The translations under genes and the position numbers were made by a program. DNA of 64,000 bases from Collinsella aerofaciens (GTDB lineage Bacteria; Actinomycetota; Coriobacteriia; Coriobacteriales; Coriobacteriaceae): the NCBI RefSeq assembly GCF_902364945.1, contig NZ_CABJFS010000004.1, positions 1 through 64,000 on the forward strand, given 5' to 3'. Shown one piece after another: positions 11,968 through 46,577 of this stretch. The notes below the pieces were generated by a model. That model was not told the origin of the DNA. It saw only the letters and a list, made by a program, of their open reading frames with translations, and made no database searches. The first letter of the stretch is position 1. Each line of letters begins with the position of its first letter.

Positions 11968-11998
11968 CACCACAAAGGGGACAGTCGCCTTTGTGGTG
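11968..11998. repeat. Inverted repeat A with GGGACAGT core
   Basis: CACCACAAAGG (11968-11978) and CCTTTGTGGTG (11988-11998) are exact reverse complements around GGACAGTCG. The site is 10 bases after the deacetylase stop, and the following T-run is poor. It shares a GGGACAG-like core with the inverted repeat at 26074-26110, although the arms are unrelated. Confidence 0.6.
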
Positions 11999-20637: not shown

Positions 20638-20684
20638 CATGTGGTTTTCGGAGATCGGTACATATAGGCATGCTCTTTGATGGA

Positions 20685-20714
20685 GGCGCCGGGGCCGTGA
20701 CTGGCTCCGGCGCC
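20685..20714 (+). terminator. Stem-loop terminator after the DUF4097 gene
   Basis: GGCGCCGG (20685-20692) pairs with CCGGCGCC (20707-20714), followed by TTTGCCTTT. It is 48 bases after the DUF4097 stop and just before the Elp3 gene. Confidence 0.75.
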
Positions 20715-20734
20715 TTTGCCTTTACAATGGGGAC

Positions 20735-22642
20735 ATGGAACAGATTATCTTGAACATACTCGAGGCTCTGCGTCGCGGCGAGACCGTGGACGACAAGGCG
20801 CTCGTCAAACTGATACATGCCGAGGCGCGCCGTGAGGGTGCCGACAAACGCGATTTGGCCAAGCGCCGTCTGCTGCCGTTCTACCAGCGGGTTAAACGTG
20901 AGGAGCCGGCTCGGTGGGCTGCGTGGAATGTCGATTCCGATCTGGAACGCCAACTGCTGCAGGTGCTGCGCATGAAGCCGCGCCGCACGGCTTCGGGCGT
21001 GGCGACCATTACCGTCATCACCAAGCCCTGGCCATGCTCGGGCGATTGCCTATTTTGTCCCAACGATCTGCGCATGCCCAAAAGCTATCTGCATGCCGAG
21101 CCGGCGTGCGCCCGTGCGGAGCAAAATTGCTTTGACCCGTATCTGCAGGTGAGTGCCCGTTTGACGGCGCTTTCGCAAATGGGGCATGCGATCGATAAGA
21201 TCGAGCTCATTGTGCTCGGCGGTACCTGGAGCGACTATCCGCAAGGGTATCAAACGTGGTTTATGTCGGAGCTATTCCGTGCGCTCAATGACGATGCCGT
21301 CGCCGGCGTGGCGGCAAACCCCATGTTGGCGCGTCCGGGCGTCAGCCGTGCCGAGGCAGGGCGTCTGCTCGATGACGCTCCCGCCGATGCCCTGCCGCCT
21401 GTGGTAGCAGAGCGCCGCGAGCGCTATCGGGCCGCCGGCATTGCGACAGACGAGGTCGAGCTTGCTGCCGGCGTTGCCGACGAGCAGGGGCGTGTGGATG
21501 CTGCCGTGGGCGGCTATAACCGTGCGGTGTGTCGTCTGTACGGTCCCGGTACGCCGTGGGGCGAGGTCACTGAGTGGCAGACGGCAACGATGGAGGAGCT
21601 CGAGCGTCAGCAGCGCATCAACGAGACGGCGAAGCATCGCGTGGTGGGACTCGTTATCGAGACGCGCCCCGATGCTGTAACGCCGCAGGCGCTTACGCTC
21701 ATCCGCCGCCTGGGCTGCACCAAGATCCAGATGGGTATCCAGAGCCTCGACCAGCACCTGCTCGATATCAACGAGCGTCGCATTTCGGTGGCGCAGATCG
21801 AGCGGGCGTTTTCGCTTGCGCGCCTGTTTGGCTTTAAGATCCACGCGCATTTTATGCTTAACTTGCTGGGCGCCACGCCCGAGGGGGACAAGCGCGACTA
21901 CGAACGCTTTATGACCGAAGGGGCCTTTATGCCCGACGAGGTCAAGGTCTACCCGTGCGCGCTCATCGAGGGCTCGCGTCTGGTGGGCTGCTATGAGCGT
22001 GGCGAGTGGCGCCCCTATACCGAGGAAGAGCTGCTTGATGTGTTGGCCGATGACATCGTGGTGACGCCGGCGTTCTGCCGCATCAGTCGCATGATCCGCG
22101 ACTTTAGCTCCGACGACATCATGGTGGGCAACAAGAAGCCCAACCTGCGTCAGCTCGTCGAAAACCGCTTGGCGGCTCGTGGGGAAGGCACGACGGTGCG
22201 TGAGATTCGCTATCGCGAGATCAGTACGGCGGGTGCCGACCTGGATGAGCTGACCCTTGACGAGGGGGTGGCGTACGAGACGCCGGTGACGCACGAGCGC
22301 TTTTTGCAGTGGGTGACACCGCAGGGCAAAATCGCGGGCTTTTTGCGCCTGTCCCTGCCCGACCGCGCGTTTGTTGCCGCGCACGCGGACGAGTTGCCGA
22401 CGATGCCGGAGGAGGCAATGATTCGCGAGGTGCACGTGTATGGCATGGCGGCGCGCGTGGGCGATCAGGGCCAGGCGGCGCAGCATCACGGGTTGGGGCG
22501 TTTGCTCGTAGAGCGTGCGTGCGAGATTGCCCGGGATGCCGGCTATGCGCGCATCAACGTGATCAGCGCGATCGGTACGCGCGAGTACTATCGCCATCTT
22601 GGTTTTTATGACCATGGCCTTTATCTGCAAAAGGAGCTCTAG
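20735..22642 (+). CDS. elp3: Elp3 homologue: radical SAM/GNAT tRNA wobble-uridine carboxymethyltransferase
   Basis: The 635-residue protein has the Elp3 plan. A radical SAM domain carries the cluster cysteines in KPWPCSGDCLFCPND (C-x3-C-x2-C), then LIVLGGTWSDYP, GLVIETRPDAV and GCTKIQMGIQS. A C-terminal GNAT acetyltransferase domain carries HGLGRLLVERA, NVISAIGTREYYRHLGF. Elp3 uses acetyl-CoA and a SAM radical to place carboxymethyl on U34 of tRNA, and single-subunit bacterial and archaeal forms work without the rest of Elongator. The Cys spacing is tighter than the eukaryotic form. The next gene starts immediately after the stop. A Trm9-like methyltransferase is nearby on the other strand. 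Confidence 0.88.
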   Translation: MEQIILNILEALRRGETVDDKALVKLIHAEARREGADKRDLAKRRLLPFYQRVKREEPARWAAWNVDSDLERQLLQVLRMKPRRTASGVATITVITKPWPCSGDCLFCPNDLRMPKSYLHAEPACARAEQNCFDPYLQVSARLTALSQMGHAIDKIELIVLGGTWSDYPQGYQTWFMSELFRALNDDAVAGVAANPMLARPGVSRAEAGRLLDDAPADALPPVVAERRERYRAAGIATDEVELAAGVADEQGRVDAAVGGYNRAVCRLYGPGTPWGEVTEWQTATMEELERQQRINETAKHRVVGLVIETRPDAVTPQALTLIRRLGCTKIQMGIQSLDQHLLDINERRISVAQIERAFSLARLFGFKIHAHFMLNLLGATPEGDKRDYERFMTEGAFMPDEVKVYPCALIEGSRLVGCYERGEWRPYTEEELLDVLADDIVVTPAFCRISRMIRDFSSDDIMVGNKKPNLRQLVENRLAARGEGTTVREIRYREISTAGADLDELTLDEGVAYETPVTHERFLQWVTPQGKIAGFLRLSLPDRAFVAAHADELPTMPEEAMIREVHVYGMAARVGDQGQAAQHHGLGRLLVERACEIARDAGYARINVISAIGTREYYRHLGFYDHGLYLQKEL

Positions 22643-23521
22643 ATGAACAAGCCGAGTGTTTCTGCCGGCGTCGTTGCCGGCGTTGCTCTGGGAGCCGCGG
22701 CGCTTGGTGCGGCCGCTGTCGCTGTTCGTGCTGCCTGTCTGCAGGTTGCGCGAACCTGCAATGGGTTGGCGCGTGTGAAGCGCGTGCACGACGAGGGCGG
22801 CGACGAAGTCCGCGTATTGGTGCAAGGCGGCGTCTACCAAAGCGCGAGTTACGTTGGCGAGCGTTGGGCTGAGCCCGCCTTTGCGTACTATCGTGCGTTT
22901 GACGACGTGTTTGAGGCCGAGGATGCGATGCGCGACGTTTATGGTCACGGTATCAGCCGTATGCTCATGCTGGGTGGCGGCGGGTTTGCCTATCCCAAGT
23001 TTGCACTGATGTCGCACGAGGGTTTGCGCATGGACGTCATCGAGTATGACGGAGAGATTACGCGTCTGGCCCGCCGCTGGTTCTACCTAGACGAGCTGGA
23101 GCGCACGGCGGGCGATCGCCTACGGGTGATTACTGCCGAGGCGCGTTCGTACCTGGGCGTGACGAGCGTGGGGCATCGTCGCTACGACGTGATCGTGAGC
23201 GATTGCTTTGGCGGTGCCGAGCCCGTGCGCGAGCTGGCGACCGTTGAGGCGCTGCGTTTGGTGCGGGGTAGCTTGAACCCCGGGGGTATCTACGTTGCCA
23301 ATATCGTGAGCGCAAACGAGGGAGGCGATGTGACGTTCCTGCGTGATTGCGCTGCCACGGCACTCGAGGTATTCGCCCACGCCTGGGTGGTCCCATGTGG
23401 CGATGCGGAGTTCGGCGGCGAGGAAAACTACCTGCTCATCGCCAGCGACGGCAACTACGCCTTTGCCGAAGCCGTGCCCTTCGACACCGACTTCCTCGGC
23501 ACCGTCCTTCACGACAAATAA
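22643..23521 (+). CDS. Spermidine-synthase-like SAM-binding protein with N-terminal membrane anchor
   Basis: A hydrophobic Ala/Val-rich N-terminus (about 8-32) precedes a Rossmann methyltransferase-like domain. This contains RMLMLGGGGFAYPKFAL, VIEYDGEI and YDVIVSDCFGG, in the order seen in polyamine synthase-like proteins. The real reaction is unknown, since many such homologues are not aminopropyltransferases. It begins right after the elp3 stop (TAG-ATG) with AAGGAGCT inside elp3, so the two are co-transcribed and perhaps coupled. Length is 292 residues. Confidence 0.72.
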   Translation: MNKPSVSAGVVAGVALGAAALGAAAVAVRAACLQVARTCNGLARVKRVHDEGGDEVRVLVQGGVYQSASYVGERWAEPAFAYYRAFDDVFEAEDAMRDVYGHGISRMLMLGGGGFAYPKFALMSHEGLRMDVIEYDGEITRLARRWFYLDELERTAGDRLRVITAEARSYLGVTSVGHRRYDVIVSDCFGGAEPVRELATVEALRLVRGSLNPGGIYVANIVSANEGGDVTFLRDCAATALEVFAHAWVVPCGDAEFGGEENYLLIASDGNYAFAEAVPFDTDFLGTVLHDK

Positions 23522-23547
23522 GTCTCCCCGTCCCAAAAAGACTGGTC

Positions 23548-25992
23548 TTAGGCGTGGTCGCGCCAGCCGAGAACGCGCTGCTTCATGTCTTCGATGTCGA
23601 GCACGCCTTCGGCAAAGCCCTTGCGCACGAGCTCTTCGGGAACGAACTCATCGTAACGATCAAAGTAAGGCACCTCGCCGGGATAGACGAGCTCGATGGG
23701 ATCGAAGTCCTTCTCGGCCTCGGCGGCGAGCACTTCAAAGAACGTCTCCTCGTCGGCCTTCATCTTAAACTGCATAAAGTACGGGCGTGACGGGTCGAGT
23801 CCGCGAAGGCCTAACTCAGCAGCGCATTTGATTTTAAGCATGCGCTCAAGTGCTAGGAAGGCGTAGCTGCCCAACCAGGGGAAGAGCACCCAGGTGTCGC
23901 CACCCAGGTTGATGAGCGGCTTAGTTCCCGCACCCGAAATCTCGGCGGTATGACGAGCCTGTGCAAGACGTGCCCGTGCGTTGCCCATGAGATACGGATA
24001 TGCCGCATGCTCGTTGAGCGCCTTGCGCATGCGCTCGAGTACGTGTGTATTGATGTCACCGGGGCAGTCGCCAAAGTAGGCCGGCACACGGCCCTTGACC
24101 TGCGTGGCAAAGACGGTATGACGCTTCCAGTCCACTTCCTCGACAATCCAGCAATGGCCTGCAATGGCGATGCGCTCACCGGGCGGTGGGGGATTGACGA
24201 TCGTGCCCAACTCGGCCGACTCGCTGCGAACAGTGAACTCCTCGTTTTCCTGGAACACGGCATAGAACTTAAAGTTGTTGATGATGCGCTCGCCCGCGAG
24301 ACCCACGATGAGCCCGCCGCCCTCGGTGACCTGGATATGGTCGATCTTAATGAGGTGACGCAGCAGCACGCGATAGTCATCGGCCGAGATGCGATGGAAA
24401 TAGCTCAGTGTGAGCACGCGCTGGGCAAGTTCGGCCGGCGTGAGCTCTCCGGTGCTGGCGAGGGTCGACATGGTCTGGTGATAGAGCAGACTGTAGGGGA
24501 GTCGATCGAGCTCGGGCGGTTCGACCCACTTTTCCTCGCGATAGAGTTGTACAAGCGCGATGCCCTGCAGGAGCTTCCAAGGAATGGTCTCGGGCATCAT
24601 CGTGCGCGGCTCGGGTTCTTCCTCGCGCATGACAAACCACATCTCGGGCGGAAGGTCGCGACGGCCTGTGCGGCCCATACGCTGCAAAAAGGAGCTGACG
24701 GTAAACGGCGCGTCAATCTGGAAGGCGCGCTCCAGGCGGCCGATATCGATACCGAGCTCCAGCGTAGAGGTGGTGACGGTTGTCTGCGCCTGCTCCTCGT
24801 CGCGCATGAGCTCCTCGGCCGTCTCGCGCAGCGATGCCGAAAGGTTGCCGTGGTGGATGAGAAAGCGGTCGGGCTCGTGTCGACTTTCGCAGTAGCTGCG
24901 CAGCATGGAGCACACGGCCTCTGCCTCCTCGCGCGAGTTGGCAAAGACCAGGCACTTGCGGCCGCGCGTATGCTCAAAGATGTAGCCCATACCGGGGTCG
25001 GCGTTGTCGGGTGCCGTGTCGGTGGGGTTGAGAAGCGCCTGCTCGGCCGCTCGTGGGATGTCGACTTCGCCCTCGGGGGCCGAGGAAGTGCGACGGTCTT
25101 TGGGAGCGGCCTTGCCCCGCGCCTGCTCGCGACGTTGACGGCGCTCCTCTTGTGTGAGTTGTCCGCTGTGACGCATGTCTTGGGCGCCGGCGGGCAGTGC
25201 CGCGGATGCCGCCGCCTCGATGCGCTCGCACGCAAGCACTTCGGCCTCTTGAGGACCCGTGCTCTCGAATCCCCGCTGCTGTGCCTGGGGACCCGAGTTG
25301 TAGAAGTGCTCCATGGAGATGCGCCACACGCGACGCGGTTCCTCAAAACGGGGGATAACGCAGTCGCGTCCCGTTCCCTGCGAGAGAAAGGCACCCGTGC
25401 GCTCGGGGTCGCCGATGGTGGCCGAAAGGCCAATGCGGCGAGGCTGCACGCCGGCCATGCGCGAGAGTCGCTCGATAAGGCAGAGCGTTTGCCCGCCACG
25501 GTCGCCGCGCATGAGCGAATGGACCTCGTCGATAACCACGTAGCGCAGGTCGCAGAACATGCGCGGGATCGCCATGTGCTTATGGATCAAGAGCGCCTCG
25601 AGCGACTCGGGTGTAATCTGCAAGATGCCGCTCGGCTTTTTGATGAGTTTGGCCTTGTGCGATTGCGAGACGTCGCCATGCCAGTGCCAGACGGGGATGT
25701 CGGCTTCTTCGCACAGGTCATTGAGGCGGACGAATTGGTCGTTGATGAGCGCCTTGAGGGGGCCAATGTAGAGGGCGCCCACGCTTGCGGGCGGGTTCTC
25801 CCAAAACTCGGTCAGGATGGGAAAGAAGGCTGCTTCGGTTTTGCCGGAAGCTGTGGATGCCGTCAGGAGTACATTGTCTTGTGTGTTAAAGATGGCATCT
25901 GCCGCCGCAACCTGAATGGAGCGCAGGCTCTCCCAATCGTGGGAGTAGATGAAGTCTTGGATAAACGGGGCGTAGCGGTCAAAGGCGTTCAT
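23548..25992 (-). CDS. sngC: Lhr-like DEAD/DEAH-box helicase; SngC of a Shango-type defence operon
   Basis: A superfamily 2 helicase of 814 residues: TASTASGKTEA (44-54), DEVH (155-158), GLSATIGDPER and QRMGRTGRRD. About 350 further residues follow the helicase core, as in Lhr-like proteins and BREX BrxHI. A Glu/Arg-rich insert lies between the two RecA-like lobes. ATG 25992 (MNAFDRY) follows AAAGGAGG; an upstream start adds ten residues. It is the third gene after a TerB-domain protein and a BrxD-like ATPase, the published order of the Shango antiphage system (TerB protein, ATPase, helicase). The role in defence is inferred from that synteny. Confidence 0.75.
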   Translation of the reverse strand: MNAFDRYAPFIQDFIYSHDWESLRSIQVAAADAIFNTQDNVLLTASTASGKTEAAFFPILTEFWENPPASVGALYIGPLKALINDQFVRLNDLCEEADIPVWHWHGDVSQSHKAKLIKKPSGILQITPESLEALLIHKHMAIPRMFCDLRYVVIDEVHSLMRGDRGGQTLCLIERLSRMAGVQPRRIGLSATIGDPERTGAFLSQGTGRDCVIPRFEEPRRVWRISMEHFYNSGPQAQQRGFESTGPQEAEVLACERIEAAASAALPAGAQDMRHSGQLTQEERRQRREQARGKAAPKDRRTSSAPEGEVDIPRAAEQALLNPTDTAPDNADPGMGYIFEHTRGRKCLVFANSREEAEAVCSMLRSYCESRHEPDRFLIHHGNLSASLRETAEELMRDEEQAQTTVTTSTLELGIDIGRLERAFQIDAPFTVSSFLQRMGRTGRRDLPPEMWFVMREEEPEPRTMMPETIPWKLLQGIALVQLYREEKWVEPPELDRLPYSLLYHQTMSTLASTGELTPAELAQRVLTLSYFHRISADDYRVLLRHLIKIDHIQVTEGGGLIVGLAGERIINNFKFYAVFQENEEFTVRSESAELGTIVNPPPPGERIAIAGHCWIVEEVDWKRHTVFATQVKGRVPAYFGDCPGDINTHVLERMRKALNEHAAYPYLMGNARARLAQARHTAEISGAGTKPLINLGGDTWVLFPWLGSYAFLALERMLKIKCAAELGLRGLDPSRPYFMQFKMKADEETFFEVLAAEAEKDFDPIELVYPGEVPYFDRYDEFVPEELVRKGFAEGVLDIEDMKQRVLGWRDHA

Positions 25993-26073
25993 GAGGCCTC
26001 CTTTCAAAAGCGAATCTCTCAACGCGGCGAGCAGTGGCTTGCTGCATTACTGCTTCAACGTTCGCCCAGATAA

Positions 26074-26110
26074 AACCTGCCAAAATAAACCTGTCCCTTT
26101 TTGGCAGGTT
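26074..26110. repeat. Inverted repeat B inside the Shango-like operon
   Basis: AACCTGCCAAAA (26074-26085) and TTTTGGCAGGTT (26099-26110) are exact reverse complements around a loop containing CTGTCCC. The right arm reaches into the stop codon of the ATPase gene, so on the minus strand the hairpin sits immediately before the helicase gene. It could attenuate or protect the transcript. The GGGACAG loop motif recurs at 11968-11998. Confidence 0.62.
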
Positions 26111-27413
26111 AGATGGTGAATTCGGCGAAGTTGCGGTTGCCGTCTGCGGTGCCGGTGTCGCCTGTTGCAGCTGGCGGCGCCAGCGTGACGCCGCCGACGC
26201 TTTGCAGCAACTCAGCCACGTTTGCATCGGGATTCTGGCACAGGATATCGAGCAGCTCGATAAAGTCACGGATGACCTCACGCGGCGTCAGATGCGTGTC
26301 TGCTCCCACACGACCGAACTCGATCTTGAGGAAGTCTACCAAGTCGTTCTCGGTAAGCGTGGGCGTCCAGCCAAAGTAGCCAGCATGGATCTGCATGAGT
26401 TTTTCGATCAGCACCAGCAACTCCTCGTAGGTGAGTGGCTGCAGGCGGATGATGGGCGCGAGCATGTCCTTAAGATCCTCGCGTGCAAAGCGGCCTTGAG
26501 CGAGTCGGCTGCGCAGGGCCTCGTAGGAGAACACGCCACGGCGGCGGTCTTCGATGGAGGTTGGCGTGCCGCCCATGATCATGCCCAGGTACTGCGCCTT
26601 GCCCTGGAGCGTGTCGTTGTACATGGTCAGGATCTTCTCGTAGTTGTATTGGCGTGTGATGGCGTTGGGAATCTTATACAGATTCACGAGCTCGTCGATG
26701 AGCACCAGCATGCCCTTGTAGCCGCTGCAGACCAAAAAGCGCGCAATGAGTTTGACGTAGTCGTACCAGTCATCGTCGCTGATGATGGTTGAGGACCCCA
26801 GTTCGGCGCGAGCCTCGCTCTTGGTGCGGTATTCGCCGCGGATCCATTTGGTCACGCGGCTCATAGCTTCTTCGTCGCCCTCGGATACGGCCGCGCGGTA
26901 GCGGCGGAGCATGCGGGTGAAGTCAAAGCCGTGGACCATTTCCTCGAGCGGCGCCAGTTGGGCATTGACGGCAGGCTCGTCGGCATCGGCACACGAGGCG
27001 ACCCAGCGATCCAGGATAAGGTTGAGCGCACCGCCCTCGGGGCGCGTCTTGGTCGATATATTGCGGATGAGCTCGCGGTAGGTGGCAAGGCCCTGTCCCT
27101 GACCGCCCTGCAGGCGGCGCTCGGGCGACAGGTCGGCATCAGCGACGACGAATCCCTCGCCCATGGCGTGCGTGCGGATGGTCTGGAGCAAAAAGCTCTT
27201 GCCGGCGCCGTAACGACCGACCAGAAAGCGGAAGCTCGCGCCACCGTCGGCGATGAGACTCAGGTCGGTGAGCAGGGCGCGGATCTCGACCTCGCGCCCT
27301 ACGGTGATGTAAGGAAGGCCGATGCGCGGGACCACGCCGCCCTTGAGCGAGTTGAGAATGACGGCAGCGACGCGCTTGGGCACGCGGGGTGCTGCGGATG
27401 CGGTATCACTCAT
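26109..27413 (-). CDS. sngB: BrxD-like P-loop ATPase (DUF2791); SngB of a Shango-type defence operon
   Basis: A 434-residue AAA-type ATPase with Walker A GRYGAGKS (66-73) and Walker B LVLIDE (D240, E241). An arginine-rich sensor region (GGTPTSIEDRRRGVFSYEALRSRL) follows. The N-terminus (VILNSLKGGVVPRIGLPYITVGR) is characteristic of the DUF2791/BREX BrxD group. Its start overlaps the end of the TerB-domain gene by 8 bases (27406-27413), showing tight coupling. No other BREX gene is present, so I assign it to a Shango-like trio. Confidence 0.78.
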   Translation of the reverse strand: MSDTASAAPRVPKRVAAVILNSLKGGVVPRIGLPYITVGREVEIRALLTDLSLIADGGASFRFLVGRYGAGKSFLLQTIRTHAMGEGFVVADADLSPERRLQGGQGQGLATYRELIRNISTKTRPEGGALNLILDRWVASCADADEPAVNAQLAPLEEMVHGFDFTRMLRRYRAAVSEGDEEAMSRVTKWIRGEYRTKSEARAELGSSTIISDDDWYDYVKLIARFLVCSGYKGMLVLIDELVNLYKIPNAITRQYNYEKILTMYNDTLQGKAQYLGMIMGGTPTSIEDRRRGVFSYEALRSRLAQGRFAREDLKDMLAPIIRLQPLTYEELLVLIEKLMQIHAGYFGWTPTLTENDLVDFLKIEFGRVGADTHLTPREVIRDFIELLDILCQNPDANVAELLQSVGGVTLAPPAATGDTGTADGNRNFAEFTI

Positions 27414-29151
27414 GGTTTAGGTATCCTCTCACGTCTGCTTCGTAGTCCTCGATAATCTGCGGCCCTGCCGCGCCGAATTCGATAACGGTGTCTCCCATCA
27501 GGTCAAAGAGCGCCTCGTTGATGGTATCGACAAGCATGTCCTCACTCTTGCCCGACTGCGCCACCGCCGATGCCGTCTGCACTGCGTTTTGCTCGAGTAG
27601 TGCTCGAAGATAGGCGTCTGCGGCGGGATCGAGTGCGGACGCGGTGTCAGCGGACGTGGGTGCTGGTGCGAGGAGCGGGGCCACGACGCCAAACTGCTCG
27701 GTGGAGATGGTCGGCTCGCTAGCCTCGTCCTGCTGCATGGTCGTCGCGACTGGTTCGGCGATCGTGCCGGCCACGGGCTTGGCTTCCCGTCGTTCGGCAA
27801 CTGTCACCTCGGCATCCGCAAGCGTGCCGTCCTCGCGTTCCTCATCGATCAAAAGCGCTTCGCGCGTTTGCGCAGCGGCGTTCCGAATGTGCCCCAGCTG
27901 ACTCAGATCGATATCGATCTTGACGGGCTGGTGTGCGGCGTCCCACGAAAGCCATGCCACAATCTCGTCATCGATAATCTTGGCCAGATATTTGGGGACC
28001 TTTTCTTCCTTAAGGGGATGGGCGGGGTCCAGCGCCAGGCGTAGGCGTTGGTCGCAGGCGCGCATCATTTCACCGAGCTTGCTGCTCTTTTGCCTGCTGC
28101 CGTGGATACGCATGCATTCCCAAAAGCCGTTTTGGCAACGGTAGATATGGATAGGATTCAGGCGGTATTCGCAGTCCTCGTGGCGCTCGGGCGCAAAGAA
28201 TACGGCCGAGGCAAACATGGTGTAGGGCATGGCCGTCTCCTCCCCAAATAAACTCGCCACGATGCCGGTCTTTCGGTGCGTGTCATAGTAGCGCGCCATA
28301 CGGACATACACGGCGCATGCCACGTGGCGCAGATCGCAGTGGTGGCTGCGGTCGAGCCGCGAGTTACTTAGGTTGTACGTGGAGAGGGCGTTGATGGCGG
28401 CCATGAGTCGTTCCTCGCGCACCTCATCGGGCGGAAGGGGGAGCGTGGGCTCGGAGATTTTGCGACGCTTAGGGGTCTGGCCGGACGGTGCCGGTGCTGG
28501 TACAAGGTCTCGTGCCGCGCGCCGCAGCTCGATAAGGGCGTTATCGAACATGACGGTTTTAGAGTCGCGAAGCAGCTTGGGGTCGAGCCCGTGGAACACG
28601 GCGTAATCCTGCAGCCACACGCGCGCAAACCGGTCGATGCCGGGCTCGAAGGCGCGATAGACATCCCAAAAGGCCTTGATCTTGTTAAAACCATCGAGCG
28701 GATTATCTACGCCAATGCCGCAAATCAGCTCATAGAGATACAGAAAGGCAAAGGACGTAGACGTTTCCTCGACGGTTCCGCGGCGCACTTGGGTACGCCA
28801 GGTAAAGTAGCCGCGCAACTGTCGATCGCTCATGGCATTGTAGGTGGGAAAGTACGACTTAAAGGTGCCGTTGTAGGGGCAGTCGTCCTCAAAGTCGGCC
28901 ATCAGCAGGCCTTGGCGGTAGAAAAGCTCGGCTTCCGAAAGCCAACGACCCGCGCCGCCCTTGGGGTCATCCTGCCAGCGCGATATCTCGCGCATTTTGC
29001 GGTACTGGTCGGGGAGGAAATTCTGCATCTGTCGGCCGGTTTTGAGAATCGGCTCGTCTGCGTAGATTTCGTTAGAGAAGCGGGCGGACTGATGGGTCCG
29101 GGCCTCGGCCATAATGCGCTCGATGAGCATCTTGATGTCCTGGTCGGCCAC
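27406..29151 (-). CDS. sngA: TerB N-/C-terminal domain protein; SngA of a Shango-type defence operon
   Basis: The 581-residue protein has a TerB-N region (about 60-270, with RGYFTWRTQVRRG and AFLYLYELICGIG). A central region and a C-terminal part (about 480-575) follow, the latter acidic and consistent with TerB-C. The TerB fold was named from tellurite resistance but occurs in several membrane- or nucleic-acid-associated defence modules. The GTG start follows AGGAGAAGCG. It is the first gene of the three-gene minus-strand operon. The exact role in Shango is not known to me, and activity here is untested. Confidence 0.72.
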   Translation of the reverse strand: MADQDIKMLIERIMAEARTHQSARFSNEIYADEPILKTGRQMQNFLPDQYRKMREISRWQDDPKGGAGRWLSEAELFYRQGLLMADFEDDCPYNGTFKSYFPTYNAMSDRQLRGYFTWRTQVRRGTVEETSTSFAFLYLYELICGIGVDNPLDGFNKIKAFWDVYRAFEPGIDRFARVWLQDYAVFHGLDPKLLRDSKTVMFDNALIELRRAARDLVPAPAPSGQTPKRRKISEPTLPLPPDEVREERLMAAINALSTYNLSNSRLDRSHHCDLRHVACAVYVRMARYYDTHRKTGIVASLFGEETAMPYTMFASAVFFAPERHEDCEYRLNPIHIYRCQNGFWECMRIHGSRQKSSKLGEMMRACDQRLRLALDPAHPLKEEKVPKYLAKIIDDEIVAWLSWDAAHQPVKIDIDLSQLGHIRNAAAQTREALLIDEEREDGTLADAEVTVAERREAKPVAGTIAEPVATTMQQDEASEPTISTEQFGVVAPLLAPAPTSADTASALDPAADAYLRALLEQNAVQTASAVAQSGKSEDMLVDTINEALFDLMGDTVIEFGAAGPQIIEDYEADVRGYLNHE

Positions 29152-29188
29152 CGCTTCTCCTCTCCTAACGCAGCTTCGGTGACCTCAT

Positions 29189-29197
29189 ATCATAGCA
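29189..29197 (-). promoter_or_regulatory. Possible extended -10 promoter of the Shango-like operon
   Basis: On the minus strand the spacer reads TGCTATGAT, an extended -10 element about 40 bases before the GTG start of the TerB-domain gene. No good -35 hexamer is seen. Confidence 0.3.
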
Positions 29198-29239
29198 CAG
29201 CATCAAACAGGTGTTCGAGATACTGCTGCGTAGATAGAT

Positions 29240-29956
29240 TTAGAACAGGAGGGCGTAGATGACGGCGATGACGACGGAGGGGAGCATATTGGCCGTGCGG
29301 AAGGTCTGAGGACGGATGAGGTTGACGCCGACGCAGAAGATGAGCATGGAGCCTACGAGCGAAAGGCTGTCGAGGGCTGCCGTGGTCATGATGGGGGAGA
29401 GTGCGCCGGCAAACAGTGTGATCGTCCCCTGGAACACGGCGACGGGCAGGGCGGAGAAGATGCAGCCGCGGCCAAGCGAGGCCGTCATGGTGCAGACGAT
29501 GATGCAGTCTAGCGCACCCTTGAGGGCGAGTGTGGACCAGTCGCCGAGCAGACCGTCTTGGATTGATCCCACGATAGCCATGGCACCGATGCAGACGGTC
29601 AGCGATGTCGAGACAAAAGCGTTGGTGAACTCGTTATCGCCCTCACTGCCAGTCTTGCGCTTGAGCCATTCGCCAAGGTTCTCGATGGCGGCTTCCAAGT
29701 TGACGGCCTCGCCGATGAGCGAACCGAGCGCAAATGAGACGATGAGCATGGTGGTACCGGTGGTCGACAGCGCCTTTCCATCGATGACGAGCATCTTTTG
29801 CATGGTGCCGCCCAGGCCGATAAACAGGACGCACAGCCCCGATGCTTTCATGAGCGTGTCTTGGATGCGCGGTGTAATGAAGCGGCCGCCCGCTAATCCC
29901 AAAAGACCGCCCGCAACTAAAAGCACAACGTTGATGATTGTTCCCAAGCCCGGCAT
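29240..29956 (-). CDS. DUF554 family membrane protein (YdfK/YqgA-like)
   Basis: A 238-residue protein with about six or seven hydrophobic helices beginning MPGLGTIINVVLLVAGGLLG. It has the family blocks GLCVLFIGLGGTMQ, GSLIGE near the middle and a DGLLGD loop. DUF554 proteins are inner-membrane proteins of unknown function, sometimes annotated as transporters. The ATG at 29956 is preceded by AGGAGGGCTC; a longer frame to 30025 is unconserved. It ends 88 bases before the TerB gene start region. Confidence 0.85.
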   Translation of the reverse strand: MPGLGTIINVVLLVAGGLLGLAGGRFITPRIQDTLMKASGLCVLFIGLGGTMQKMLVIDGKALSTTGTTMLIVSFALGSLIGEAVNLEAAIENLGEWLKRKTGSEGDNEFTNAFVSTSLTVCIGAMAIVGSIQDGLLGDWSTLALKGALDCIIVCTMTASLGRGCIFSALPVAVFQGTITLFAGALSPIMTTAALDSLSLVGSMLIFCVGVNLIRPQTFRTANMLPSVVIAVIYALLF

Positions 29957-30074
29957 GAGCCCTCCTGTATTGATGCCAACGTGGCAATCGTAGCAGAACG
30001 AAATGCGAGGCACATCGCGACTCATCTAATACGTTATATAAGTGGTATTAGGAATGATGCGCAGCATTTAAGTC

Positions 30075-31505
30075 TCAGGTGGTTGTCGGGACATAGGGAT
30101 AGTAGTCAAAGCGCAGTGTCATAAGCCGCTGTGGGGATTCAATAGCCGCAGCGATGATATTGGCATCACGGGCACGATCAAACCCTTCGAGTTCGATCTG
30201 ATACGAGACGTCTTGCATAATGTCCAGACGTCGCCAGGCTAGGAGTGTGTCGCCATCGAATTCCAGGGTCTTGCCTCCGTCTGGAGCAACGGCGTATAGA
30301 CGCAGTTTAGCGGTGGTTGCAGGGTCGACAACCGTGACCTTTTTAATTTCGTTTCGAGTATTCTTGGCGCCCAACAGGGTGAGCAGTGTTGGGGCCACGA
30401 CCTCGCCCGATGGCAAAAAGACGACTTCGATGGATTCGGGAAATGCGATGATGGCCGACTTGCGGACGGGCTGATTGGCGGCGGCAACTTCGATGTTCGC
30501 AGCGTCGATGACCTCCGTGTGGTCGAGCGCGGCAAGCACGCAGCAGTTGCCTTCATCGATCTCTTGAGGATCAGCAAACCTCAGACTGTCCGCGAGCTCG
30601 GGATCGCTTGGATCGGTAGCGGGCTCATTCGGTGCTTCGAAAGAAGCTGGGACGCTGTTTGTCGGCGACGGCGTGTCGCCCGCACCTGCTTCTTTGTCCG
30701 CGCTCTCTTCTTGTGTGGTTGCGTTGATGGGTTCGTCGTTTGAGGGGAGCGTCTTGGCGTCAAGCGCGGAGGGGAGAATTCCGATGGCTCCGGATCCGTT
30801 CCACTCCATTTCGAGAAGCGCCGGGTCGGCAAGAATGCGTTGCCTGCTTTGCGCGTGGGCATCGATTTCAATAGGGCCTGCCTCTATCCCTCGTGTAAGG
30901 CTGAGTGATCCGTCTGACTTCTCGAAATGAGCGTCTGTGTCTTTGGTGCTGACGGCGTAGAACAGCAGGGACGCTTCTCCCGCCGCGACGGCATCGGTGC
31001 CGGCTTTGGTCAGCTGCAACGATGCCGTGAATGAGAGGGTGGGCTGCGTGTCGTCTGCATTCGCGGCGGCGCAGCCCAGACATATACCGCCTCCTTTCTC
31101 GAAAAACGCACCGTCGAAGACGACCTTCGCTCCGTTCGCCGAGTCATCGACCGAAGCGATGTCGATGCGCAGCTCTAAATTGCATGGATCGCCATCTGCA
31201 TCGAGCACAACCGAGCGCCACGTGCAGACGGCGCACCCCGCCTGGGAGCCGTTTGCCTTGTTCGAACGATTGATATCCACGACTATCGAGCCGTCCGTAT
31301 TACGACGAAGGCATCCCGAGGTTGAGATTGCGGCCTGTGCGATCGAAAAACGCTTGCACGCAATGGCGCTCGACGGATTTGGTGCGGAGATTAGGGCTGC
31401 TGATAAGGAGTCTGCCATGACGGGAGTCGCCCAAGCGGCGACAGGCGTTCCGGTTGCGAGCGCGCCGCAGAGTGCGACGACGGGCAAAAGGTTCTTCGAT
31501 GCCAT
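30075..31505 (-). CDS. Secreted protein of unknown function
   Basis: A 476-residue protein with a classic signal peptide (MASKNLLPVVALCGALATG... AWATPVMA). A Cys-containing domain follows (about 45-160, with paired cysteines GCAVCTW and GGGICLGCAAA), then a Pro/Glu/Ser/Thr-rich linker (about 255-320) and a second beta-rich domain. No family is recognised. There is no LPXTG motif or terminal membrane helix, so it is probably secreted or held by another wall protein. The ATG follows AAGGAGACCCC. It is the last gene of a five-gene operon of surface proteins. Confidence 0.65.
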   Translation of the reverse strand: MASKNLLPVVALCGALATGTPVAAWATPVMADSLSAALISAPNPSSAIACKRFSIAQAAISTSGCLRRNTDGSIVVDINRSNKANGSQAGCAVCTWRSVVLDADGDPCNLELRIDIASVDDSANGAKVVFDGAFFEKGGGICLGCAAANADDTQPTLSFTASLQLTKAGTDAVAAGEASLLFYAVSTKDTDAHFEKSDGSLSLTRGIEAGPIEIDAHAQSRQRILADPALLEMEWNGSGAIGILPSALDAKTLPSNDEPINATTQEESADKEAGAGDTPSPTNSVPASFEAPNEPATDPSDPELADSLRFADPQEIDEGNCCVLAALDHTEVIDAANIEVAAANQPVRKSAIIAFPESIEVVFLPSGEVVAPTLLTLLGAKNTRNEIKKVTVVDPATTAKLRLYAVAPDGGKTLEFDGDTLLAWRRLDIMQDVSYQIELEGFDRARDANIIAAAIESPQRLMTLRFDYYPYVPTTT

Positions 31506-31523
31506 GGGGTCTCCTTAGCTAAT

Positions 31524-31805
31524 TTAGTGCGGCCTGTCCATGTTTTGTTTCTGGCTGCGTTTGATGTGCAGACCGAGGCCGGCGGTTCCTGCGCCTGCTG
31601 CTGTGGCGCCTGCTGCCAAGAGCCATCGTCTGTCGCCTGTCTGCGCCAACGGTTCCTCGCGGTCGCCGCGGTCGAGCTCCGAGAGGTCGACCGTCACTTG
31701 CGTGGCGGCCTGCGCCTGTTCTTGCTGGGCAAAGGCCATGGCTGGCCCAAACGCTAGGATGCTGACGGCGGCGGCCAGGGCGACGGCCTTATACCGTGTG
31801 CGCAC
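31524..31805 (-). CDS. Small sortase-type cell-wall protein (LAQTG motif)
   Basis: A 93-residue protein with a signal peptide (to about residue 26, FGPAMAFA), a short acidic mature part, a LAQTG sorting signal at 53-57, a hydrophobic helix and a KRSQK basic tail. That is the standard layout for sortase anchoring, although the mature part is only about 30 residues. I prefer GTG 31805, 14 bases before the upstream gene's stop; an ATG at 31835 gives a longer basic leader. A tiny wall-anchored protein beside larger secreted proteins may be an anchor or pilus base. Confidence 0.62.
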   Translation of the reverse strand: MRTRYKAVALAAAVSILAFGPAMAFAQQEQAQAATQVTVDLSELDRGDREEPLAQTGDRRWLLAAGATAAGAGTAGLGLHIKRSQKQNMDRPH

Positions 31806-32388
31806 CGGGCTCGACCGTCCAGGTGATCGTCGCAACCTGATCGCCTTCGCCGGTTACGCGGAAGATGTCGCGCGTGACGCGGGCGACGTTTCCGCTTGTC
31901 TTGAGCTTGATTTTGTCCGTGCCGCCGGCAATGCCCTGGTAGCCCATGTCGAAGGCTGCATTCTTGGAAAGATCGAGGCCCGTCCCCTGCATTGCGGCGC
32001 TGGCGTTCTGGAGCGCGCCGTCGGGGCCGACCTTAAAGTCGATGGAGTTCTGCGCGGTTCCGGCCTTGGCGTCGGCGGCAATGGTCCAGGTGTTCATGGC
32101 GTCGATCTTCACGTTGGTGACATGGATGCCGTAGGCCGAATGATTGTCGATGGTGGTCGCGTCTTCTGAGGGGCCCTGAAGCGTGCCGTCGGCCTTGGCG
32201 ACGAAGGGAATAACCGTCGGAACTTTGAACTCAACGTTGTCGATCTCGGTCCTGACCATTACCTTCGTGGTTCCAACGCGCCCGGCTGCCATAGCTGGCG
32301 TCGGGGCGGCGCCCATTGCGAGCGCGAGCGCGAGCCCTGTGCCCACGACGAGCGCTCTGACTCCGTTCATGTTCCTGGTGATGTCCAT
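31789..32388 (-). CDS. Secreted WxL-like or pilin-like surface protein
   Basis: A 199-residue protein with a signal peptide ending AAPTPAMA-AG and a beta-rich mature domain. Two blocks, NTWTIAADA and ATITWTVEP, resemble the paired WxL and W-x-V wall-binding motifs of WxL-domain proteins, but the match is partial. The ATG follows AAAGGAACGACC. Its stop overlaps the start of the LAQTG protein, so the two are coupled. Function unknown; a role in adhesion or wall structure is inferred from context. Confidence 0.6.
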   Translation of the reverse strand: MDITRNMNGVRALVVGTGLALALAMGAAPTPAMAAGRVGTTKVMVRTEIDNVEFKVPTVIPFVAKADGTLQGPSEDATTIDNHSAYGIHVTNVKIDAMNTWTIAADAKAGTAQNSIDFKVGPDGALQNASAAMQGTGLDLSKNAAFDMGYQGIAGGTDKIKLKTSGNVARVTRDIFRVTGEGDQVATITWTVEPGAHTV

Positions 32389-32477
32389 GGTCGTTCCTTT
32401 CTATTCGCCGCGGGCCGTCCCCGCGATGATTGGACGAATGCTGGTGAATTGCATGCGGTGCCGCGTCGGCCGGAAGG

Positions 32478-32987
32478 CTAGTTCTCGGCTTGCTCAACCC
32501 GTACCTTGACACGTGTCGGATTGCCGTGGCTGTCGAGGGTCTTGGCATCGAGTGCTTGGATCTCGATGTACGCCTCGCCTTCTTTGATGTCGCCGGCGGG
32601 GCACGTCTCGATTGTCTTGCCGGTCTCGACCACACCGGATTCGTACATGGTCTCGTCGTTTTGGATGACGCGGAATCGCTGGGGAAATTTATTGTCTTGG
32701 ACGTTTTGCACGTTGACGCGCAGCTTGCCGTCCTCCTGCAGCTGAGCGACCGGCGCGACCGAAATCGTCATCATGTTGTCGCGGACGATGGCGTCGAGCT
32801 CATCTTGGATTTCCTGACGCGTTTTGCCCTCGGCCGTCGTGACCGAAGCGCCCGCCTCGGGTACGGGCTGCGACTGCCAAGCGTATAGTCCTACGGCGAC
32901 AAGGGCACAGACGATGGCCAGACAGGCAGCGATGAGCTTCTTGCGACGCCCCAGGCCTGCAAAGTGGGGTGGCCTCTTCGCGCTCAT
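32478..32987 (-). CDS. Single-pass membrane protein with extracellular beta domain
   Basis: A 169-residue protein: a short cytoplasmic basic tail, a transmembrane helix at about 18-36 (LIAACLAIVCALVAVGLYAW), then an extracellular domain of about 120 residues with alternating beta-strand character. No family is recognised. ATG 32987 overlaps the upstream gene by 4 bases (ATGA), showing coupling. It precedes the WxL-like gene by 89 bases in the surface operon. Confidence 0.62.
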   Translation of the reverse strand: MSAKRPPHFAGLGRRKKLIAACLAIVCALVAVGLYAWQSQPVPEAGASVTTAEGKTRQEIQDELDAIVRDNMMTISVAPVAQLQEDGKLRVNVQNVQDNKFPQRFRVIQNDETMYESGVVETGKTIETCPAGDIKEGEAYIEIQALDAKTLDSHGNPTRVKVRVEQAEN

Positions 32988-42830: not shown

Positions 42831-45800
42831 TTAAGCGAAGTAGGCTACGCCGCTCTCAAAGATCGGCATGAACTTGTCGCCGGGGACATGCTCGGGCACG
42901 TTGCGGTACAGGTTGTCGCCGCGACGCTCGGCATGGCCCATCTTGCCCAGGACGCGGCCGTCGGGGCTCGTGATGCCCTCGATGGCAAGTGCGGAGCCGT
43001 TGGGGTTGATGGAAAGGTCCATGCTCGGCTTGCCGTCCTCGCCCACGTACTGCGTAGCGACCTGGCCGTTGGCGATCAGCTGGGCGAGCGCCTCGTCATT
43101 GGCGACAAAGCGGCCCTCGCCGTGGCTGATGGCGACGGTGTAGGGGTCGTCGAGGCTGCACTGCGACAGCCACGGGGACAGGTTGGACGAGATGCGGGTG
43201 CGCACCAGGCGGCTCTGATGGCGACCGATGGTGTTGAACGTCAGCGTGGGCGCATCGGGCGTGGCGTCGACGATATCGCCGTAGGGCACCAGGCCGAGCT
43301 TGACCAGGGCCTGGAAGCCGTTGCAGATGCCCAGCATCAGGCCGTCGCGGGCCTTGAGCAGGTCGCGGACTGCCTCGGTGACCTCGGGAGCGCGGAAGAA
43401 CGCCGTGATGAACTTGGCGGAGCCGTCGGGCTCGTCACCGCCCGAGAAGCCGCCGGGGATCATGACGATCTGGCTTGCACGGATGCGGCGGGCAAGCTCG
43501 TGGGTGCTTTCGGCAACAGCCTCGGGCGTGAGGTTGTTGATCACGAAGGTGTCGGCCTCGGCGCCGGCGGCGCGGAAGGCGCGGGCGCTGTCGTACTCGC
43601 AGTTGTTGCCGGGGAACACCGGGATAATCACGCGCGGGCGGGCAATCTTGGCGCCGCCGTACACGTGGATATCCTTGGTGCGATAGTCGATGGTCTCGAC
43701 CTCGGGCTGCTCGCCGGTGCTGCGGTAGGCAAAGACACCCTCGATGCCGCTCTCCCAGGCCTCTTGGAGCTCGGAGAGCTCGATGACCTCGGAGCCGGTG
43801 TCGATGACATAGCCCTCGACGGTGGTACCCAGGGGCTCGACGACAACGCCGTTGGCGACCTCGGGCAGCTCGGCGTCATCGGCGAGCTCGACGATAAAGC
43901 TGCCGTAGAGCGGGGTGAAGAGGCTCTCCACGTCCACGTCCTCGGCAAGCTCGATGCCGATCTGGTTACCGACGCACATCTTAAAGAGGCTCTCAGCGCC
44001 GCAGCCGTAGCCGGGCGTGGAGACGGCCAGGGCGTCGCCGGTAGCAGTGAGCGCCTCGACGGCGTCAAACACGGCGAGCAGCTGCTGAGCGTCGGGGCGG
44101 TAGTCCTCGCCGTAGGTGGCGGGGGCGATGCGGACGACGCGGTGCGTCAGGCCCTTGAACTCGGGCGAGACGGCGCGGGTGGCCTTGCCCACGGCCACGG
44201 CGAAGCTGATGAGGGTCGGCGGAACGTTGAGCTCGCCGGCCTCGTCCTCAAAGGAGCCGCTCATGGAGTCCTTGCCGCCGATGGCGCCGGCACCCAGATC
44301 GACCTGGGCCATAAGGGCACCCAGGACGGCTGCCATGGGCTTGCCCCAACGCTCGGCCTCGGTGCGCAGGCGCTCGAAGTACTCCTGGAAGGAGAGGTAG
44401 GCGCGCTTGTGCTCAAAGCCGGCGGCAACGAGCTTGGCGATGGACTCGACTACGGACAGGTAGGCGCCCGCAAACTGGTCGGCCTCCATCAGGTAGGGGT
44501 TGAAGCCCCATGCCATAGCGCTCGCCGTGGTGGTCTCGCCGTCCACGGGGAACTTGGCGACCATGGCCGAGCTGGGGGTGAGCTGCGTCTTGCCGCCAAA
44601 GGGCATGAGCACGGTCGCGGCACCGATGGTGGAGTCAAAGCGCTCGGAAAGGCCCTTGTTGGAGGCGACGTTGAGGTCGGTGACAAGCGAGGTCATGCGC
44701 TCGGCAAGCGTGGTGCCGGCCCAGCTGGGCTGCCACACGCTACGGGCGCAGACGTGGGCGACCTGGTGCTTGGGTGCACCGTTGGAGTTGAGGAACTCAC
44801 GGGACAGGTCGACGATGGCGACGCCGTTCCAGGCCATGCGCATGCGCGGCTCGGCGGTAACCTCGGCGATAACGGTCGCCTCGAGGTTCTCCTCGGCGGC
44901 GTAACCCATGAACTCCTCGACGTCACCGTCGGCGACGGCGCAGGCCATGCGCTCCTGGGACTCGGAAATGGCGAGCTCGGTGCCGTCCAGGCCGTCGTAC
45001 TTCTTGGTCACGGTATCAAGGTCGACATACAGGCCGTCGGCAAGCTCGCCCACGGCGACCGAGACACCGCCGGCGCCAAAGTCGTTGCAGCGCTTGATCA
45101 GACGGCAGGCATCACCGCGGCGGAACAGTCGCTGCAGCTTGCGCTCGACCGGGGCGTTGCCCTTCTGGACCTCGGCACCCGAGGTCTCGATGGACTCGGT
45201 GTTCTGGGTCTTGGAGGAGCCGGTGGCACCGCCGATGCCGTCACGGCCGGTGCGGCCACCCAGCAGGATGATCTTGTCGGTGGGGGCGGGGCACTCGCGG
45301 CGCACGTGGTTTGCCGGGGTAGCGCCCACGACGGCGCCGACCTCCATGCGCTTGGCCACGTAGCCGGGGTGATAGAGCTCGTTGACCTGGCCGGTGGCAA
45401 GGCCGATCTGGTTGCCGTAGCTGGAGTAGCCGGCGGCAGCGGTGGTTACGAGCTTGCGCTGCGGCAGCTTGCCCTCGAGCGTCTCGGACACGGGGACGGT
45501 GGGGTCGCCGGCGCCGGTGACACGCATGGCCTGGTACACGTAGCTGCGGCCCGAGAGCGGGTCGCGGATGGCGCCGCCCACGCAGGTGGCGGCACCGCCG
45601 AAGGGCTCAATCTCGGTCGGGTGGTTGTGGGTCTCGTTCTTAAAGAGGAACAGCCAGTCCTGGTCCTCGCCATCGACATCGACCTTTACCTTGACGGTGC
45701 AGGCGTTGATCTCCTCGGATTCGTCGACATCGGTCATGACGCCGGTCTTCTTGAGGTACTTGGCGCCGATGGTGCCCATGTCCATGAGGCAGACGGGCTT

Positions 45801-46577
45801 AGCGTCGCGGCCGAGTTCGTGGCGCATCTCCATGTAGCGGTCGAAGGCCTGCTGCACCACGGCGTCGTCGATCGTCACGTCGTCCAGGACGGTGCCGAAG
45901 GTGGTGTGGCGGCAGTGGTCGGACCAGTAGGTGTCGATCACACGGATCTCGGTGATGGTGGGGTCGCGGTCCTCATCGCGGAAGTACTGCTGGCAGAAGG
46001 CGATGTCCGCTTCGTCCATGGCGAGACCGCGCTCGGAAATAAAGGCGGCAAGGCCGGCCTCGTCGAGCTCACGGAAACCGTCGAGCACCTCGACGGGCTG
46101 GGGCTCGGGGGTCTCTATGTACAGCGTCTCGGGCAGGTCGAGCGAGGCGATGCGCGCCTCGACGGGGTTCACCACGTAGTGCTTGATGGCATCGATGGCG
46201 GCCTCGTCCAGAGCGCCCGAGATCATATAGACCTTGGCGGAGCGCACGGCGGGGCGCTCGCCCTGGCTGATGAGCTGCACGCACTCGCTGGCGGAGTCGG
46301 CGCGCTGGTCAAACTGGCCAGGCAGGAATTCGACGGCAAAGACGGCGCCATCGCTTGCGGGGAGCTCGTCGTAGGTCACATCGACCTGGGGCTCGCTAAA
46401 GACGGTCGGCACGCAGGAGCGGAAAAGCTCCTCGTCGATGCCCTCGACGTCGTAGCGGTTGATAATCCTCAGGGCCTCGATGCCCTTGATGCCGAGAATT
46501 TCGGTCAGCTCGCCCTTGAGCTGCTGAGCCTCGACGTCGAACCCGGGTTTCTTCTCCACGTAGATACGAGAGACCAT
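42831..46577 (-). CDS. purL: Phosphoribosylformylglycinamidine synthase, single-chain
   Basis: The fourth step of purine synthesis: it converts FGAR, glutamine and ATP to FGAM. The 1248-residue chain fuses an N-terminal PurS-like part, two AIR synthase-like halves (NHPTEIEPFGGAATCVGG, SDHCRHTTFG, GGKDSMSGSFED) and a C-terminal glutaminase with the nucleophile Cys in MLGICNGFQ and PGGFSGGDEPDG. Many Gram-positive bacteria have separate PurS, PurL and PurQ, so the single chain is notable though known. The ATG at 46577 is the first in frame. Monocistronic, with a strong terminator. Confidence 0.97.
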   Translation of the reverse strand: MVSRIYVEKKPGFDVEAQQLKGELTEILGIKGIEALRIINRYDVEGIDEELFRSCVPTVFSEPQVDVTYDELPASDGAVFAVEFLPGQFDQRADSASECVQLISQGERPAVRSAKVYMISGALDEAAIDAIKHYVVNPVEARIASLDLPETLYIETPEPQPVEVLDGFRELDEAGLAAFISERGLAMDEADIAFCQQYFRDEDRDPTITEIRVIDTYWSDHCRHTTFGTVLDDVTIDDAVVQQAFDRYMEMRHELGRDAKPVCLMDMGTIGAKYLKKTGVMTDVDESEEINACTVKVKVDVDGEDQDWLFLFKNETHNHPTEIEPFGGAATCVGGAIRDPLSGRSYVYQAMRVTGAGDPTVPVSETLEGKLPQRKLVTTAAAGYSSYGNQIGLATGQVNELYHPGYVAKRMEVGAVVGATPANHVRRECPAPTDKIILLGGRTGRDGIGGATGSSKTQNTESIETSGAEVQKGNAPVERKLQRLFRRGDACRLIKRCNDFGAGGVSVAVGELADGLYVDLDTVTKKYDGLDGTELAISESQERMACAVADGDVEEFMGYAAEENLEATVIAEVTAEPRMRMAWNGVAIVDLSREFLNSNGAPKHQVAHVCARSVWQPSWAGTTLAERMTSLVTDLNVASNKGLSERFDSTIGAATVLMPFGGKTQLTPSSAMVAKFPVDGETTTASAMAWGFNPYLMEADQFAGAYLSVVESIAKLVAAGFEHKRAYLSFQEYFERLRTEAERWGKPMAAVLGALMAQVDLGAGAIGGKDSMSGSFEDEAGELNVPPTLISFAVAVGKATRAVSPEFKGLTHRVVRIAPATYGEDYRPDAQQLLAVFDAVEALTATGDALAVSTPGYGCGAESLFKMCVGNQIGIELAEDVDVESLFTPLYGSFIVELADDAELPEVANGVVVEPLGTTVEGYVIDTGSEVIELSELQEAWESGIEGVFAYRSTGEQPEVETIDYRTKDIHVYGGAKIARPRVIIPVFPGNNCEYDSARAFRAAGAEADTFVINNLTPEAVAESTHELARRIRASQIVMIPGGFSGGDEPDGSAKFITAFFRAPEVTEAVRDLLKARDGLMLGICNGFQALVKLGLVPYGDIVDATPDAPTLTFNTIGRHQSRLVRTRISSNLSPWLSQCSLDDPYTVAISHGEGRFVANDEALAQLIANGQVATQYVGEDGKPSMDLSINPNGSALAIEGITSPDGRVLGKMGHAERRGDNLYRNVPEHVPGDKFMPIFESGVAYFA

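Follow-up and report, generated by a model that had tools for sequence, protein, structure and literature searches.

The window analyzed here, 64,000 nucleotides of Collinsella aerofaciens contig NZ_CABJFS010000004.1 (positions 1 to 64,000), carries the genes sngA, sngB, and sngC, a Shango-family trio that is fixed in Collinsella and nearly so in its family, the Coriobacteriaceae. The motor motifs of SngB and SngC are intact, the genes sit among ordinary conserved neighbors, and the trio is under strong purifying selection and has come down mainly by vertical descent. Given this fixation, these neighbors, and low omega values, as against patchy yardstick defense genes and the mobile loci of Escherichia coli, we regard it as a long-resident Shango locus of the core genome and not as a defense island. 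Our preferred reading, held at about even odds (roughly 0.5), is that the trio is a DNA-processing machine of the Shango family, belonging to the core genome in Collinsella and in nearly every family member sampled, and that it serves as a vertically inherited, standing defense by genome surveillance.

Identity of the three proteins

The trio consists of three consecutive, co-oriented minus-strand genes in the order TerB-type protein, ATPase, helicase. The best PADLOC model for each protein, matched over nearly its full length, was that of SngA, SngB, or SngC, respectively (Table 1). In Pfam, SngA matched TerB_N and TerB_C, SngB matched BrxC_BrxD (498 bits; formerly DUF2791), and SngC matched DEAD and Helicase_C; no nuclease domain was found in a Pfam scan of the three proteins. 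The motor motifs of SngB (Walker A, GRYGAGKS; Walker B, LVLIDE) and the helicase motifs of SngC (TASGKTE, DEVH, SAT, and QRMGRTGRR) were intact, and both sets were kept in aligned relatives from several families of the class. Residues ~240 to 330 of SngC form a hydrophilic, poorly conserved stretch. Identity to the window protein was 56 to 80% for SngB (15 relatives), 45 to 81% for SngC (15 relatives), and 27 to 56% for SngA (14 relatives), with the SngB proteins of named C. aerofaciens loci at 97 to 98%.

Much of what an earlier note had read from this DNA was thereby upheld: a three-gene Shango-family locus in the stated order (from both Pfam and PADLOC matches, the latter being a profile check that the note itself had proposed), an 8-base overlap of the first two genes, and a host-like base composition (G+C fractions of 0.60, 0.62, and 0.61 for sngA, sngB, and sngC, compared with 0.61 for the window). 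Its helicase also stands, with a corrected start: the most likely start codon is the ATG at 25992 (814 amino acids), which has AAAGGAGG 4 bases upstream, instead of the less likely TTG at 26022.

The SngB and SngC proteins were also matched by PADLOC models of the bacteriophage exclusion (BREX) system, which would be in keeping with a remnant of type 2 BREX from which only a BrxD-BrxHI pair is left over, yet the scores of 132 bits (BrxD on SngB) and 409 bits (BrxHI on SngC) fall far below the 561 and 915 bits of the Shango models. The NCBIfam model BREX_BrxD reached 133 bits on SngB, below its cutoff of 350. The type 2 BREX components named in the available portion of PMC12839542, moreover, do not include a TerB-type SngA, and no PglZ match came from the nearest genome (G001) or from 29 others, 30 of the 43 genus genomes in all. 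These scores and the PglZ distribution contradict such a remnant, which we consider extremely improbable, as the earlier note also held. Its statement that no BREX genes are present holds in the scanned part of the window: 53 genes were called, and PglX, PglZ, PglW, and BrxC were absent from the 20 proteins scanned with PADLOC, out of ~50 outside the trio.

What the locus shares with type 2 BREX (Pgl) is a homologous ATPase-helicase pair; it differs in its TerB-type third gene and in the clearly separate profile scores of SngB and SngC. In a paper whose available text makes no mention of Shango (PMC12839542), BrxD and BrxHI are described as a linked dyad, with BrxD, an AAA+ ATPase of the ORC-Cdc6 type, as the possible loader of BrxHI onto DNA. 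SngC, BrxHI, DruE, and DpdJ have been placed in one potentially distinct clade of superfamily 2 (SF2) helicases (PMC12278908, as far as its available text goes). The kinship of these families had been put forward as making the trio a bridge between BREX and Shango; it belongs to the families at large rather than to this locus and has for the most part already been published.

Fixation in the genus and near-fixation in the family

Each of 43 Collinsella genomes, one per species, had SngA and SngC, and 41 had SngB. The genes were single-copy at the thresholds applied, and none of the matches listed contained an internal stop; SngA of one genome (G029) was split across two contigs. One of the two genomes lacking an SngB match (G015) reflects an assembly edge, where the SngA match ends at base 11,997 of a 12,006-base contig, and the other (G027) is 72% complete, with its SngC cut at a contig end. 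Genomes as small as 1.7 to 1.9 Mb had the trio. Yardstick defense genes were patchy in these same 43 genomes: Cas1 was found in 7, HSDR_N (HsdR) in 15, and PglZ in 13.

Beyond the genus, SngB was present in 62 of 65 genomes of the family (56 of 57 good genomes; one family genome without a match, G318, is 85% complete) and in 29 of 31 genomes (25 of 25 good ones) of a genus belonging to another family of the same order. In two genomes of this second genus, a longer SngB match was accompanied by an additional partial one interrupted by an internal TAG (G282, C1:321385-321888; G686, C204:5791-6297). Across the class, 121 of 296 genomes, from 28 of 125 genera, had SngB, as did 18 of 396 in a sample of the phylum, 17 of these from the same order as Collinsella. 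The earlier note had supposed that the locus may be long resident, and this has become the main result; it had also named, as grounds for giving up an antiphage reading, fixation of the trio in all Coriobacteriia with no island behavior and a housekeeping role. These grounds apply in part: fixation in the genus and near-fixation in the family were found, without island behavior, but the class as a whole had SngB in only the minority of genomes given above.

Selection and descent

Omega, estimated over 12 loci from the C. aerofaciens group, was 0.041 for SngB, 0.037 for SngC, and 0.116 for SngA. Neighboring genes gave 0.037 (DUF554), 0.038 (gene at 17879), 0.064 (FAD oxidase), 0.068 (Elp3), and 0.092 (methyltransferase), and five less constrained neighbors gave 0.10 to 0.26. 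Along SngA, omega was 0.27 to 0.35 at residues ~421 to 540 (within TerB_C), 0.03 to 0.07 at residues 61 to 180 (in TerB_N), and 0.005 at residues 301 to 360; adaptive change across the whole of SngA was rejected, the high rate being confined to residues ~421 to 540. Mean identity over 16 Collinsella species was 78% for both SngB and SngC, 49% for SngA, and 90% for rpoB, with 69% for Elp3 over 10 species. Sequences below a length limit had been dropped beforehand (SngA, <450 amino acids, 6 of 86; SngC, <650, 3 of 86; ELP3, <560, 4 of 36; SngB, 0 of 87).

Tree distances in 30 genomes correlated with those of rpoB at r values of 0.66 (SngA), 0.64 (SngB), and 0.69 (SngC), where 1,000 permutations reached at most 0.58, 0.45, and 0.41, respectively. 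All 32 Collinsella tips of the SngB tree shared a smallest common clade of 43 tips, whose remaining 11 belonged to the same family, with no Clostridia among them; the node joining Collinsella with these 11 had a local support of only 0.22, and four members of another genus of the family (g24) fell outside that clade, among other families. Taken with the topological conflicts considered below, these comparisons show that the genes have come down mostly by vertical inheritance, together with a degree of exchange inside the order.

Gene neighborhood

Gene maps were made for 95 fetched stretches plus the window, with codon models trained per locus and start codons in relatives assigned by script. 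The genes around the trio were ordinary ones (Table 1), including also a TrmB-type methyltransferase and a flavin adenine dinucleotide (FAD)-linked oxidase. The methyltransferase/Elp3 pair was no more than four genes away from SngC in 29 of 34 Collinsella loci, and four of the five misses had only two or three genes of sequence on that side. Elsewhere the same held for 7 of 15 loci from other genera of the family, 2 of 25 in a second family (f5; this count takes in L065, which is no Shango locus but a longer helicase lacking both SngA and SngB), 2 of 8 in a third (f2), and 0 of 5 in three further families. In 11 of 86 loci, spread over three families and none of them Collinsella, PurL was at most three genes upstream of SngA.

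Table 1. Coordinates of the trio, its junctions, and conserved neighbors in the window
Feature	Position	Strand	Description	Further observation
sngA	27406..29151	(-)	581 amino acids, GTG start; TerB_N at residues 65-195, TerB_C at residues 407-575	PADLOC SngA, 256 bits
sngB	26109..27413	(-)	434 amino acids, BrxC/BrxD-type AAA+ ATPase	PADLOC SngB, 561 bits
sngC	23548..25992	(-)	814 amino acids, Lhr-like SF2 helicase	PADLOC SngC, 915 bits
sngA/sngB overlap	27406..27413	(-)	8 bases	sngA stop and sngB start
sngB-sngC gap	25993..26108	(-)	116 bases	between sngB and sngC
Putative methyltransferase-like gene	22643..23521	(+)	no Pfam match	conserved neighbor, convergent with sngC
Elp3-like gene	20735..22642	(+)	radical-SAM protein	conserved neighbor
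DUF554 gene	29240..30025	(-)		conserved neighbor; at most three genes upstream of sngA in 21 of the 86 SngA loci mapped
purL	42831..46577	(-)	same strand as the trio	displaced here by ~13.7 kb

The genes sngA and sngB were neighbors in all 28 Collinsella loci holding all three genes, and the 8-base overlap recurred in 20 of 31 measured Collinsella junctions (with script-called starts). No sigma-70 promoter emerged from a promoter scan, and terminator-like sites did not exceed their number in shuffled sequences. Between purL and sngA, some of the distance is taken up by a cluster of small minus-strand genes (30075-33280), which the mapped loci showed in the C. aerofaciens group alone; two of its genes had omega values of 0.19 to 0.24, and three that were scanned had no Pfam match. 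On the other side of the trio, an HTH_3 regulator is followed by a DUF4097 protein (19019-20637, plus strand; omega, 0.26). The N-terminal part of an IS110-type (DEDD) transposase lies at the edge of the window (1-363, minus strand).

No clear defense gene was found among the 20 other window proteins scanned with PADLOC, in which generic helicases produced cross-matches. A DEAD helicase with DUF3516 (613 bits; 13934-16615, minus strand), a second SF2 helicase ~7 kb from sngC, cross-matched PDC-M23B (75 bits) and HamB (70 bits). The strongest cross-matches, to DpdF (188 bits) and PsyrT (155 bits), came from the helicase part of a natural RecJ-helicase fusion of 1,095 amino acids (60567-63854, plus strand), with DHH, DHHA1, and RecJ_OB at residues 85 to 564 and a possibly RecQ-like DEAD/Helicase_C part at residues 627 to 938.

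Comparison with Shango elsewhere

In Pseudomonas aeruginosa, Shango acts against many but not all phages tested, lowering the efficiency of plating by a modest 10- to 100-fold (PMC10250203, in the portion available). The Collinsella trio agrees with Shango of P. aeruginosa PA14 and E. coli in its three protein families and in their order, a likeness drawn through PADLOC models and not through the PA14 proteins themselves. The differences are that those loci are patchy and lie in hotspots or islands, whereas the Collinsella trio is fixed, core, and under strong purifying selection, with sngB and sngC often apart and with an SngA in which no TerB core was detected. Closer in the last respect is a Paenibacillus plasmid trio (L237), likewise in the order TerB_N/TerB_C protein, ATPase, helicase, and with an SngB 51.5% identical to that of the window; it differs in lying on an 897-kb plasmid record and in its shorter SngC (733 amino acids).

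Mobility of the wider family was plain. A DNA search, which gives a lower bound, found related SngB in at least 479 of 5,426 E. coli genomes; relatives occurred on 691 of 72,556 plasmid records, all at <60% identity and some perhaps BrxD-type, and no SngB match was found in 50,697 phage records. Klebsiella or Salmonella accounted for 593 of the 691 plasmid records. Two of the 479 E. coli loci and three of the 691 plasmid loci were opened. Both E. coli loci had integrases and trio genes that were frameshifted or interrupted by insertion sequences (IS). One of them (L239, E. coli 2015C-4136CT1, 1-22000) held integrases, an AbiE-type toxin, an IS-split sngA, a frameshifted sngB, and an MksE/condensin-type set, and a Klebsiella plasmid record showed an ATPase and a helicase followed by a large hypothetical protein.

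These records are what would lend weight to reading the Collinsella trio, too, as a recently acquired mobile defense operon or island, together with the integrases at both E. coli loci and the AbiE-type and condensin-type genes at one. The mobile, defense-island distribution expected of Shango was, however, not seen for the Collinsella trio. Its fixation, its host-like G+C content, and neighbors common across genera contradict a fresh island; there was, besides, no tRNA in the window, no notable flanking repeat within 19500-33000, and no clear defense gene among the 20 proteins scanned. We therefore hold recent acquisition to be very unlikely, and the description of the trio in the earlier note as an antiphage operon in the sense of a defense-island element is not sustained.

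A proposed mechanism

In the likeliest mechanism, SngB, an ORC/Cdc6-like AAA+ ATPase by homology, would oligomerize and load the Lhr-like SngC onto DNA. SngA, which diverges fast and whose gene overlaps sngB, may recognize the trigger or restrain the complex, and SngC would then unwind or strip DNA. Since no nuclease domain was found in the trio, harm to an invader would come through blocked replication or through host nucleases. As a standing defense, the trio would be maintained by constant phage pressure instead of being acquired and lost.

Points against a standing Shango defense and the housekeeping alternative

Several results weigh against this reading or parts of it. The first concerns SngA. 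TerB_N and TerB_C were present in all 68 Coriobacteriia SngA proteins aligned (68 of the 80 sequences remaining after the length filter), and the TerB core PF05099, listed for Shango in a review table (PMC10952713, in its available part), was detected in none of the 68 (E values up to 0.1). The TerB protein of the earlier note thus has the TerB_N and TerB_C stated there but no detectable core. PF05099 may not be universal in Shango, since SngA of a Pantoea plasmid has it and SngA of Paenibacillus is without it. Only 54 N-terminal columns of the Coriobacteriia SngA profile aligned with the core-bearing Pantoea SngA, and the middle part of SngA may be a diverged TerB fold. Because the core went undetected, we class the locus as a variant rather than a plain member: it is a core-genome, TerB-core-less variant within the Shango family. 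A search of solved structures likewise gave no match for SngA and no meaningful match for SngB.

The second concerns gene order. Strict adjacency of sngA, sngB, and sngC was seen in only 15 of the 28 Collinsella loci holding all three; the gap between sngB and sngC exceeded 600 bases in 14 of 28 loci with both on one stretch, reaching 9.6 kb, and in three species (G005, G021, and G030) sngA-sngB and sngC were on different contigs with other genes around them. In eight Collinsella loci (L032 to L038 and L041), an iron-only hydrogenase and ATP-binding cassette (ABC) transport block, its content judged from one scanned representative per cluster, stood between sngB and sngC. Such a block was partly present in L047, L050, and L123 as well. 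That sngB and sngC stand well apart in every second such locus, and on different contigs in three species, weakens the case for a strict single operon, and the trio is not strictly one operon throughout the genus; all three genes are nonetheless kept where such insertions or separate contigs mean that they are no longer adjacent.

The third concerns descent. For each of SngA, SngB, and SngC, only 11 of 27 splits were common with rpoB, and well-supported splits were in conflict with rpoB in 7 of 17 (SngA), 5 of 12 (SngB), and 5 of 14 (SngC) cases, which makes some transfer within the order likely.

The fourth concerns function. A literature search found no phage test for any member of the Coriobacteriia. 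Among the papers listed on Collinsella and phage defense none named Collinsella, and among those listed on TerB and tellurite none mentioned DUF2791. Fixation with an omega near 0.04 is more usual for housekeeping genes. Accordingly, the strongest competing explanation is a housekeeping DNA machine: the Coriobacteriaceae trio would act at replication forks or in DNA damage repair, with SngC replacing helicases of the Lhr/MrfA type, and mobile Shango would be a version recruited for defense (or the reverse). Near-fixation of SngB in the family and in a genus of another family, omega values as low as those of core neighbors, and retention of all three genes when sngB and sngC are apart, as well as in genomes of 1.7 to 1.9 Mb, favor a job that is constantly needed.

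Solved chains closest to SngC by sequence point the same way: they include Lhr (5v9x and 7lhl, first and second) and YprA (6znp, fourth). Lhr and YprA/MrfA have repair roles and are not known to act with partners of the SngA or SngB type; the best matched stretches cover just part of the helicase core. A further hint is that, in 35 genus genomes, no second SngC-profile match above 84 bits was listed, although no search was aimed at Lhr/MrfA; three lesser matches that were scanned comprised two RhlE/CshA-type RNA helicases and one Hel308-like protein.

Against a housekeeping role stands the absence of SngB from most genomes of the class and of the phylum sample, so that such a function would not be universal. 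Two genomes of the second genus, moreover, have an extra partial SngB match bearing an internal stop, and the same protein family is mobile, and antiphage where tested. We consider the housekeeping explanation plausible but somewhat short of even odds, and place resident immunity slightly ahead of it because of the absence from most class genomes and the family's record of defense elsewhere.

Implications

Our literature search, whose coverage mostly left out subscription papers and preprints, found no report of this fixation in Collinsella, and the papers listed had no mention of Coriobacteri-. Defense systems are usually recognized by their patchiness and island context. Here, a trio found on plasmids and islands in Proteobacteria is nevertheless nearly fixed in a common family of gut bacteria, at the constraint of core genes, and a defense-finder call in Collinsella should accordingly not be taken as acquired defense. 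The question raised is whether Shango is immunity made permanent or a DNA machine made into immunity. A more speculative proposal, which we think unlikely, would make SngABC an ancient machine by which the Coriobacteriales maintain their own DNA, built from an ORC-like loader, an Lhr-like helicase, and a TerB-type controller; mobile Shango and, by extension, BrxD-BrxHI would descend from such housekeeping machines as forms turned against phages. If that were true, the family would be the living "before" state of a defense system.

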